Positions 10,643 to 63,825 of a stretch of 64,000 nucleotides of DNA are shown here, piece after piece. Under the pieces are notes generated by a model. The model did not search any database and was not told where the DNA came from. It worked only from the letters and a program-made list of their open reading frames with translations. Each line of letters opens with the position of its first letter. Position 1 is the first letter of the stretch. This stretch comes from Candidatus Neomarinimicrobiota bacterium (GTDB taxonomy: Bacteria > Fidelibacterota > UBA2242 > B5-G15). A program made the translations under genes and the position numbers. The DNA is taken from positions 12,549-76,548 of the forward strand of contig JACDNV010000011.1 of assembly GCA_017656425.1 (NCBI GenBank). The letters run 5' to 3'.

Positions 10643-12649
10643 TTAGAACTGGTCAGGGTTTATAATCATATTGGCTTTTAGATAATCAATAATTTTCTTA
10701 ACAGATTCGTTTACATCTAACCTATCAGTTTCGATTACTATTTCAGGGTTATCAGGTTCTTCATAAGGAGCTGATATCCCTGTAAATTCTTTTATCTCTC
10801 CCAATCTGGCTTTTTTATATAATCCCTTTACGTCTCTTTTTTCACATATCTCAAGCGGAGCTTTTACATACACTTCAATAAACTCACCTTCTTTTAAAAG
10901 ATTTCTTGCTCTTTGTCTATCTTTTTTATATGGAGATATAAAAGAGGTAATGACAATAAATCCGGCGTCAGCAAAAAGTTTTGCTACCTCCCCAATTCTG
11001 CGGATATTTTCTTCTCTATCCTCAGGTGAAAAACCGAGGTCACTATTTAGCCCATGTCTTATATTATCACCATCAAGAATATAAACATTACATCCAGCAT
11101 CAAAAAGTCTCCTTTGCAACTCAGTAGCAATGGTCGACTTTCCACTCCCCGAAAGACCTGTCAACCATATTACAACTGCCCTATGTCCGTTCCTTTTTTC
11201 CCTATCCTCCTTCATTATTTTGGTATCATGCCAAATCACAATCTTTTCATCTTTATTATTATTTTTCTGGTAATAATCCATCAAAATATCAGCCACCTCT
11301 TTTCTCATAACCCGTTCATCAATGGGTTTCCCTTCCTGCAATCTTTTACGAAGCTCCTTCCCAGATATTGAAATGATTTTATAACCTTTATCCTTGTATT
11401 CGTCAACAAGCCTCACCTTTCCCAGTTCTTCAAAATACGCAGCATATCCAACTCTAAAAGGTTTTATTTCAAGTTTTCCACGTAATTTATCAAACTTCTC
11501 TTGAGCCTCAAAGTCACCCCATATTGGAGTCCCATCGTCAAAGGGAGCGTCAGCATGTTTCCTCCCAATTATGATATCCGTAAACCCATAATTCTGCCTA
11601 TAAATTGCATGCATAATTGCTTCTTTGGGACCAGCATAAAACATTTTCATATCCATTGCAATCAATATCACCTGATCCGTTAGATCATAGCCAACCTTTT
11701 TCCATAGCTCATCATCCTTGTCTCCAAGACCAAGTAATTTATTCTCTATTAAGGTAATATATGTTTCCATTCGTACTTCAGCTGGGACATCGTCACTTTT
11801 TGTTGCTCCTATCAGTGGGTTCAGTGCAGCTCCCGCAAAATATCCTTGTCTTGTAAGTTGCTCAAGCGCATATACTATTGTGTATTCATGTGCTCTGTGC
11901 AATGCATTTCTTGTCTGAAATGCTACAATCCTATCCCACCCTCTCTTTTTGAATAAATTCCTTGTCTGACGAGGTGACATCAAATATTTTTCATATTTAT
12001 TTGATCTTGGCCTTCGGAACGCCCATATTTTTCCACCTATAAGGTAATCCCTTGGATCATCATTAAATATTCTTGCCCCTGGATGGTCAGTTCTTTCTGT
12101 TTGATAGACAATACAATTGTATTTCCTTTTATCAAAATAAAAAATGTCTTCAATTTTCAATAGACCTATTATTTCTCCTTTTTCTGTCCTTACCAGGACA
12201 GTATCCCCCTCCTGAAAATTTTCTATCTCTTCTGTCGAAGTAGGGAACGATATAGGAATTGTCCATGCGTATCTCTGTCCATTCCTTACTATCACCTCCT
12301 CATCTAAAACTCTATTAAACTCTTCAGAATTCATTGGTCCTTCAAGAGGTGATAAAACACCATCCGCAATTCTATAAAATATAGAAACATCAGCATCCGA
12401 TATACTGTAAATCTTAAAATCTTTAGAATTTTTAATAATATAATCTTTCTCATAATCTGGCAGGAATCTATCTACAAGGCCACATCCTCCATGTGGTTTT
12501 GGTATCGTCTTGTATTCACGAAGTCGCCGAAGGCGATTTCCCGAAGGGCAAGCGAAGCGCAGAGTGAATACTTTGTTAGGAGCTGTGGCGTTCCTTCGTG
12601 AATACAACATTGCAAAATGAAGATTGCAATGTGCAAATTGCAAAGTCAT
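10643..12649 (-). CDS. Bifunctional sulfate adenylyltransferase / adenylylsulfate kinase, interrupted at its 5' end
   Basis: Sat-CysC fusion making APS and then PAPS from sulfate. The Sat domain spans about 49-470 ([12 protein letters not shown], then [16 protein letters not shown]). The APS kinase domain follows from about 487 ([10 protein letters not shown]-loop, [11 protein letters not shown]). The conserved start of Sat, [15 protein letters not shown], begins only at residue 49. Residues 1-48 are encoded by the inserted four-helix element (12508-13051) and do not resemble any Sat. Translation can start at ATG 12649, which has AAGGAGG ending 6 bases upstream inside the four-helix gene, and overlaps that gene's stop as ATGA. 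The ancestral start is probably ATG 13057. The QTRNP motif reads QTRNA here. Confidence 0.9.
12510..12607. repeat. Inverted repeat enclosing nested GC-rich hairpins at the left end of the element
   Basis: A perfect 13-bp inverted repeat, TTGTATTCACGAA at 12510-12522 and its complement at 12595-12607, encloses short stems: TCGCC-GAA-GGCGA, CCC-GAA-GGG and GCG-AA-GCGC, each with a GAA or AA loop. A further GTGAATAC copy lies at 12564-12571. The region is markedly GC-richer than the surrounding genome. It could fold as a branched structure in DNA or RNA and is part of the element terminus. On the minus strand it is also translated as part of the Sat N-terminal extension. Confidence 0.7.
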
Positions 12650-13020
12650 TTTCCCCCTCCTTTCGCAGTGATTACCGATTTTGCAACAATTTTGATCAAT
12701 TCGTTTGATTCAGCCAATAATGGTTGTAGCTCATTGCCAGAAATTAAGTCGCTTCTCTCCACCAGTTTCAGCCAATATAAAGACTCTCGTAATTCCTTCA
12801 AGACGAGTTGCATCTTATCTATAAAATCGGCTCTACTTTCTGCTCCACATGCCTCTTCATAATTTGCCCCAGAAGACGAAGCAGCTCGCATTAGCTGATT
12901 TGCTATGTACCGTCCCACAGCAGTCCTTTTAAGTCTAACTGTCAATTTAATGCTACTTGCTGCGAACTCTAATAGCCGTTCTGATAAATCGCTTCTATTT
13001 TTGCATTTTTCAATTTGCAT
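12646..13020 (-). CDS. Four-helix-bundle protein (S23 / IVS family)
   Basis: 124 residues with the clear family pattern: [18 protein letters not shown], then [46 protein letters not shown] and [12 protein letters not shown]. Relatives are encoded in intervening sequences of 23S rRNA genes, and the fold is shared with the Avd protein of diversity-generating retroelements. Molecular function is not established. Its ATG overlaps the 15-codon leader that starts at the host sat ATG. Its last codons (GGGK then stop) encode the RBS used by the next ATG, with an ATGA overlap at 12646-12649. There is no RBS of its own at the start, so translational coupling to the leader is likely. Confidence 0.93.
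12650..12661 (-). promoter_or_regulatory. Ribosome binding site inside the four-helix gene that restarts sat translation
   Basis: AGGAGG at 12656-12661 followed by six bases and then ATG at 12649-12647. The purines also encode the C-terminal Gly-Gly-Gly-Lys of the four-helix protein. This site decides the present start of the Sat-CysC frame. Confidence 0.7.
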
Positions 13021-13057
13021 TCTGCATTCTGCATTGAGACATTGCGCTTAACGACAT
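13010..13057 (-). CDS. 15-codon leader ORF from the ancestral sat start codon
   Basis: The ATG at 13057 is preceded by GGAGGAG at 13062-13068, a strong ribosome site and almost certainly the original sat start. After two codons it enters the inserted element and reads [15 protein letters not shown] then TGA at 13012-13010. The stop lies within the first codons of the four-helix gene (ATG at 13020), an overlap of 11 bases. This arrangement suits termination and re-initiation. Whether the peptide itself matters is unknown. Confidence 0.65.
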   Translation of the reverse strand: MSLSAMSQCRMQNAN

Positions 13058-13125
13058 TAAACTCCTCCGTCTATACAAAATAAGTTGTCTACAGTAAAGT
13101 ATTTTAATTTCTTGTTAGGGTTTGT

Positions 13126-63560: not shown

Positions 63561-63626
63561 ATTGATAAATGATTGATTTTTAAAATTTTAATCTTTTTTA
63601 AACTCTTCAAAAACAAAGTCACAACA

Positions 63627-63825
63627 TCTTGTATTAACGAAGTCGCTGAAGGCGATTTCCCAAAGTGTAAGATAGCCTTACGGCAATTGCAAAATGAAGA
63701 TTGCAAAGTGCAAAAGTCAAATTTATTTCTGTCTACATTTTGAGTGCAAAAGTCAAATCTGGCAAAAGGCGATTTTGCATTTTTCAATTTGCATTCTGCA
63801 TTCTGCATTGAGCCTTTGCGCTTAA
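63627..63825. repeat. Mini-unit 1 of the four-helix element
   Basis: 199 bp bounded by the same ends as the sat insertion: TCTTGTATT at its left and GCGCTTAA at its right. It carries the TCGCTGAAGGCGA-type hairpin, the GCAATTGCAAAATGAAGA segment and the TTTGCATTTTTCAATTTGC segment, but has about 75 bp of unrelated sequence in place of the four-helix gene. Its exit frame on the minus strand is broken by a TAG and the flanking CG on its left has decayed to CA, so it looks older than unit 2. Confidence 0.8.

Follow-up and report, generated by a model that had tools for sequence, protein, structure and literature searches.

A four-helix-bundle gene in a probable integron-type cassette inserted after the second codon of sat-cysC

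For integron integrases 5'-GNT-3' is sufficient, which may be extended to GTTRRRY, and GAT is tolerated at secondary sites; IntI1 requires nothing beyond GNT/GTTRRRY (PMC10127599). The presence of cassettes at secondary sites (Recchia and Hall 1995, as cited in PMC10127599) and their insertion at genomic attG sites by integron integrases (Loot et al. 2024, as cited in PMC12444791) have both been reported. IntI1 also excises and inserts cassettes in which attC is missing and the end is formed by 14-18 nt of attI (AAACAAAGTTRRRY, AATAAAATGTTRRRY; delta-attI cassettes; PMC12901181). Arrays of at least two attC sites that lack an integrase are termed CALIN (PMC12444791). A separate class of element, the intervening sequence (IVS) of 23S rRNA with an S23 ORF, carries a gene of the PF05635 family between mutually complementary repeats (PMC4990558).

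The window, the whole stretch of 64,000 nt of DNA that was analysed, contains an insertion in the sat-cysC gene that has likenesses to each of these systems. As in the 23S rRNA IVS, a PF05635 gene lies between mutually complementary repeats; unlike the IVS, the element is inserted in a protein gene, sat, instead of helix 9, 25 or 45 of the rRNA, and it is inserted precisely, with defined cassette-like ends. With integron cassettes at secondary or attG sites, the element shares the G^TT cut, the GTTRRRY joints, the lack of duplication, G^NT/G^WT targets, head-to-tail arrays and, for the sat copy and a homologue from a Desulfobacteraceae genome (L086), an attC-like end. It differs from them in that no intact integrase and no integron platform were seen here, most units are without attC, and dozens of gene-less units are present at about 15-19 sites. 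Cassette arrays without a linked integrase are also a feature of CALIN, but an attC-like site was found here in the sat copy only, not the two or more that define a CALIN.

Precise insertion into sat and its effect on the reading frame

A 546-bp mobile cassette lies on the minus strand exactly after codon 2 of sat-cysC (Table 1). As a sequence-only reading of this DNA had proposed, the insert splits sat from its natural start: the ribosome binding site GGAGGAG is followed by TTTA, by ATG TCG and then by the left end of the element. The right end of the element reads AAGACG (CG at 12507-12506), and sat resumes at 12505 with ATA CCA AAA CCA CAT GGA GG. Rejoining of ATG TCG with ATA CCA AAA restored the IPKPHGG frame, bearing out the exact target reconstruction claimed in that reading. 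When sat-cysC of relatives was compared for an empty site, the sat of G001, the nearest relative with the gene (same family; 75% at the amino acid level), was found to be free of the element and to start ATG TCG TTA CCG GAG CCA CAT GGA GG. Because this element-free gene starts ATG TCG TTA, the empty site is real. The two ends of the element also meet head to tail elsewhere in the genome, at all 22 internal array joints, and the inner ORF proposed to encode a four-helix-bundle protein matched PF05635 with an E value of 8e-15. The insertion into sat is real and precise.

Table 1. Positions of the element, its parts and its target in the window
Feature	Position	Strand	Basis or remark
Inserted element, TTAAGCGC...ACAAGACG	12506..13051	-	Bounds set by the empty site of a relative and by arrays elsewhere
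Left half of target, sat codons 1-2 (ATG TCG)	13052..13057	-	Sequence; empty site of a relative
Native sat ribosome binding site, GGAGGAG	13062..13068	-	Sequence
Four-helix-bundle gene, 124 aa, PF05635 (23S rRNA-intervening sequence protein family)	12646..13020	-	PDB 2rld relative
attC-like site: R'' TCCTAAC, L'' GTATTCAC ... L' GTGAATAC, crossover G	12506..12581	-	Box pairing; 0/2000 shuffles
Shine-Dalgarno-like GGAGGGGG ahead of fused sat start	12653..12660	-	Sequence
sat-cysC frame, start now within the element	10643..12649	-	48 extra residues, then IPKPHGG
201-bp gene-less unit of the element family, right end AAGATG	63625..63825	-	
Next array unit, interrupted by the contig end	63826..64000	-	

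The native sat start now opens a short frame that closes at the start of the four-helix-bundle gene. The fused Sat-CysC ORF is 668 aa long, and the 48 residues before IPKPHGG, correctly singled out as foreign to Sat, are encoded by the element. The ATG of this ORF overlaps the stop codon of the four-helix-bundle gene (ATGA) and is preceded by GGAGGGGG, and the frame that it opens passes through the end of the element into Sat. This arrangement suggests translational coupling between the stop of the four-helix-bundle gene and the sat ATG. Sat with the 48-residue extension is probably still made, because the element provides a ribosome binding site, the overlapping ATG and an open exit frame. 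In the ferritin and start-codon insertions, too, the frame leaving the element stays open and in phase; in PepF it does not.

Copies, joints and targets across the genome

A whole-genome search for the element yielded 110 matching pieces. Four of the copies carry the gene, and at least 28 more are short but complete, 24 of them exactly 201 bp long. Some copies stand alone and others are joined head to tail, up to six in a row, at about 15-19 places, many of them at contig ends. Removal of the copies restored ferritin (GGG AAG^ATA AAT, with ^ at the joint), an M3 peptidase (PepF) with the joint beside its HExxH motif (GAT G^TA AGT), and a dus fragment lying antisense to its copies. Alignment of restored ferritin, PepF and Dus to PDB homologues revealed no gap at the junction. 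The antisense copies form a two-unit array in the tRNA-dihydrouridine synthase gene (L042; G000:C7:13444-13849), where the dus frame also ends soon after the joint and the gene looks decayed. The left end of the element had no match in 245 other genomes of the phylum or in viral contigs. A self-splicing RNA was rejected, as Rfam held no match for the element and the element as a whole folds with an ordinary energy (z 0.2).

All 22 internal array joints read ...AAGA(C/T)G^(T/A)TA..., with CG at 20 and TG at two, both in one array. Nearly all joints read ...G^TTAAGC, a few units starting instead with ATAAGC or TTAGGC, and the unit start TTAAGC creates a GTTRRRY box at the joint. Unit boundaries are therefore located at G^TT with GTTRRRY at the joint, as in integron cassettes. 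The last 9 bases of the 201-bp units were altered in 7/9 array-terminal units (for example L034, L036, L037, L045 and L047) as compared with 2/15 internal units, with equal divergence of the unit bodies. A target/element hybrid overlap was considered for these altered right ends and rejected, since the positions, compared by eye, do not fit.

To the left and right of the element, 15 and 14 flanks were surveyed, respectively, giving 10 paired sites. The dinucleotide on the left was TG at eight sites, CG at three, AA at two, and AG and AT at one each; CG was present at the right end of the element in 10/14. Insertion had been attributed to a 2-bp CG junction, and the survey contradicted this claim: CG predominates at internal array joints, but the left flanks of insertion sites show no consistent CG, and the left and right dinucleotides were the same in only 3/10 pairs. 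Because the left flank varies and the two sides agree so seldom, CG is the element's own right end, neither a shared nor a duplicated target dinucleotide. The sat target TCG ends in CG as well, by chance. A shared 2-bp CG core was ruled out by the same flank table; a 2-bp-core recombinase (IS607-like serine or IS110-like) could account for CG at 20/22 internal junctions, but with TG at most left flanks and so few matching pairs it is a highly improbable mover of the element.

The target logo showed G at -1 in 12/15 sites (p 2e-7) and little else within 25 nt; right of the cut, W was found at +1 in 12/14, T at +2 in 11/14 and A at +3 in 10/14. Reconstructed sites read GNT in 6/10 cases as compared with 5.6% of the background (P 5e-6). 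The target is G^WTA without duplication, as for the secondary (attG) sites of integron integrases.

An unduplicated target, right-end hairpins and tandem arrays would also be consistent with single-strand HUH transposition (IS200/IS605-, REP- or Helitron-like) of a non-autonomous element with terminal hairpins. However, the target spans both sides of the cut and is not a left-flank tetranucleotide, and neither the Y1 transposase acting on the ends nor the left tetra- or pentanucleotide target of IS200/IS605 was found. Only one Y1 gene was found in the genome; it forms a RAYT-like module within another gene, its REP-like ends are unrelated to the element, and HUH transposition, judged by this Y1 gene and by the target, is accordingly quite unlikely. 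This module (L059; G000:C5:24938-28171), whose REP-like ends read TGIPAC..., lies in frame within a methylase/restriction-type ORF.

attC-like ends and the candidate recombinase

When the sat copy was closed on itself, the R'' box paired with GTTAAGC, formed by its own left end, at 6/7 positions with one bottom-strand wobble, and the L boxes paired at 8/8; no shuffle of the tail scored as well as its R and L boxes. The minimum-energy fold favours another pairing, so the site is attC-like and perhaps decayed. L086, the best outside relative of the four-helix-bundle protein, matches the left end of the element at 18/22 bases. Its end site pairs at 7/7 (R) and 8/8 (L) positions (0/2000 shuffles), and the bottom strand is predicted to adopt a complete attC hairpin, more stable than the fold of the top strand. 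Boxes thus pair in both the sat copy and L086, with the full fold in L086 only, and L086 carries what is, judged by these predicted structures, a textbook attC. The 201-bp units and the other three gene-bearing copies have no R'' box but have kept the right half of the site. A scan for canonical attC downstream of four-helix-bundle genes found nothing convincing. The L086 genome also holds a second, decayed four-helix-bundle cassette in which the gene has been replaced by other sequence (L216; G041:C162:11228-11713).

Four-helix-bundle genes in many phyla lie between operon genes, including livH-livM, leuC-leuD and hisS-purA (L050-L053, L074-L079, L083, L088-L104). The heptamer-like repeats flanking them look complementary (GAGTTTG/CAAACTC, TGCAAAG/CTTTGCA) and may form IVS-like RNA stems.

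In this genome, no IntI scored above the curated cut-off, but two intI relics, broken by stop codons and a deletion, were found. The main segments of these relics are mostly 43-49% identical to the IntI of relatives as compared with about 30-35% to Xer. IntI above the cut-off was found in 9/23 genomes of the order, and the L086 genome encodes three intact integron integrases (480, 437 and 370 bits). The latter (L220-L222; G041:C28, C124 and C64) are unlinked, with no obvious adjoining array in the contexts inspected, and a simple scan for R and L boxes around the IntI genes of relatives turned up no convincing attC. Because no convincing attC or array was seen beside them, the integrases of the relatives and of the L086 genome may be solo integrases. 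This genome yielded neither an intact IntI nor an attI, nor any array of canonical attC sites. Two more decayed tyrosine recombinases of Xer/phage type were observed (L172, G000:C8:103416; L173, C18:33404), and L173 also contains short repeated stretches.

Intact XerC/XerD are present in this genome, and another tyrosine recombinase, such as these host enzymes used by an IMEX-like element, might act on a double-stranded inverted-arm site, CTTCGTGAATA-CAAGACG-TTAAGCGCAAAG. At the array junction the inverted arms match imperfectly (about 7/11, by eye), and under this explanation the 201-bp units would need no attC. However, the targets show G^WTA only, with no similarity to the arms, and would be left unexplained. 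The explanation would also make coincidences of the dead intI genes and of the homologue's attC. Xer-dependent elements use dif-like sites. We therefore regard a Xer-type mover as unlikely.

The four-helix-bundle protein family may resemble DGR Avd, and the protein, as putative kin of Avd and of the rRNA IVS proteins, might help a reverse transcriptase insert the element via RNA. For IVS elements, mobility has been proposed in which the ORF serves as a component (PMC4990558). However, no reverse transcriptase, the mark of retroelements and group II introns, was found in the genome at E 0.001, Rfam gave no match, and the gene-less 201-bp units are as precise as the gene-bearing ones. A retroelement is thus very hard to credit.

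Collectively, these data make it likely that the element belongs to an integron-cassette-like mobile family, present at about 15-19 attG sites and moved by a now-dead IntI. Each unit starts with TTAAGC (G^TTAAGC being the GTTRRRY box), ends with ...AATACAAGACG, and either carries the four-helix-bundle gene or is gene-less. A tyrosine recombinase of the IntI type would cut between G and TT and insert units at attG sites, G^WTA, without duplication; new units would enter beside old ones to give head-to-tail arrays. One unit entered sat directly behind its second codon. In this genome, intI now survives only as pseudogenes. We infer IntI as the mover from the joints, the targets and the intI relics. 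For the sat copy and L086 an integron-type mechanism has good support, and for the whole family it is probable.

The 201-bp units are the commonest form, yet they are without canonical attC, which counts against the integron reading. Their ends, AATACAAGACGTTAAGC, resemble the delta-attI consensus AAACAAAGTTRRRY / AATAAAATGTTRRRY, and by analogy these units may have been moved by IntI too, through the attI-like end. Delta-attI cassettes similarly have a short attI-like end before GTTRRRY in place of attC and are mobile with IntI1. They differ in being resistance cassettes inside class 1 and 2 integrons. As a model for the 201-bp units they offer a precedent, not proof. There is a smaller chance that the 201-bp units are a new minimal kind of mobile unit: gene-less, attC-less cassettes with an attI-like simple site that would multiply like MITEs across a genome and interrupt protein genes time and again, helped in their mobility by the four-helix-bundle protein.

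Significance for cassettes and S23 elements

The sequence-only reading had held that such an insertion was not known as described. This was too strong, as duplication-free G^WT insertion and head-to-tail joining are known for integron integrases (PMC10127599; PMC12444791), but the cargo and the scale outside an integron appear to be undescribed. A search for literature linking four-helix-bundle genes with integrons found nothing.

The present case is one natural genome with about 15-19 such sites, some of them intragenic, in which the enzyme is already dead. To our knowledge, integron cassettes that have inserted outside integrons have been seen mostly in experiments and in a few plasmid cases. 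The mobility of S23/four-helix-bundle elements has, as far as we know, been an open question since the 1990s. Now that their ends are defined and both an empty site and a candidate for the enzyme are available, the question of their mobility becomes testable.
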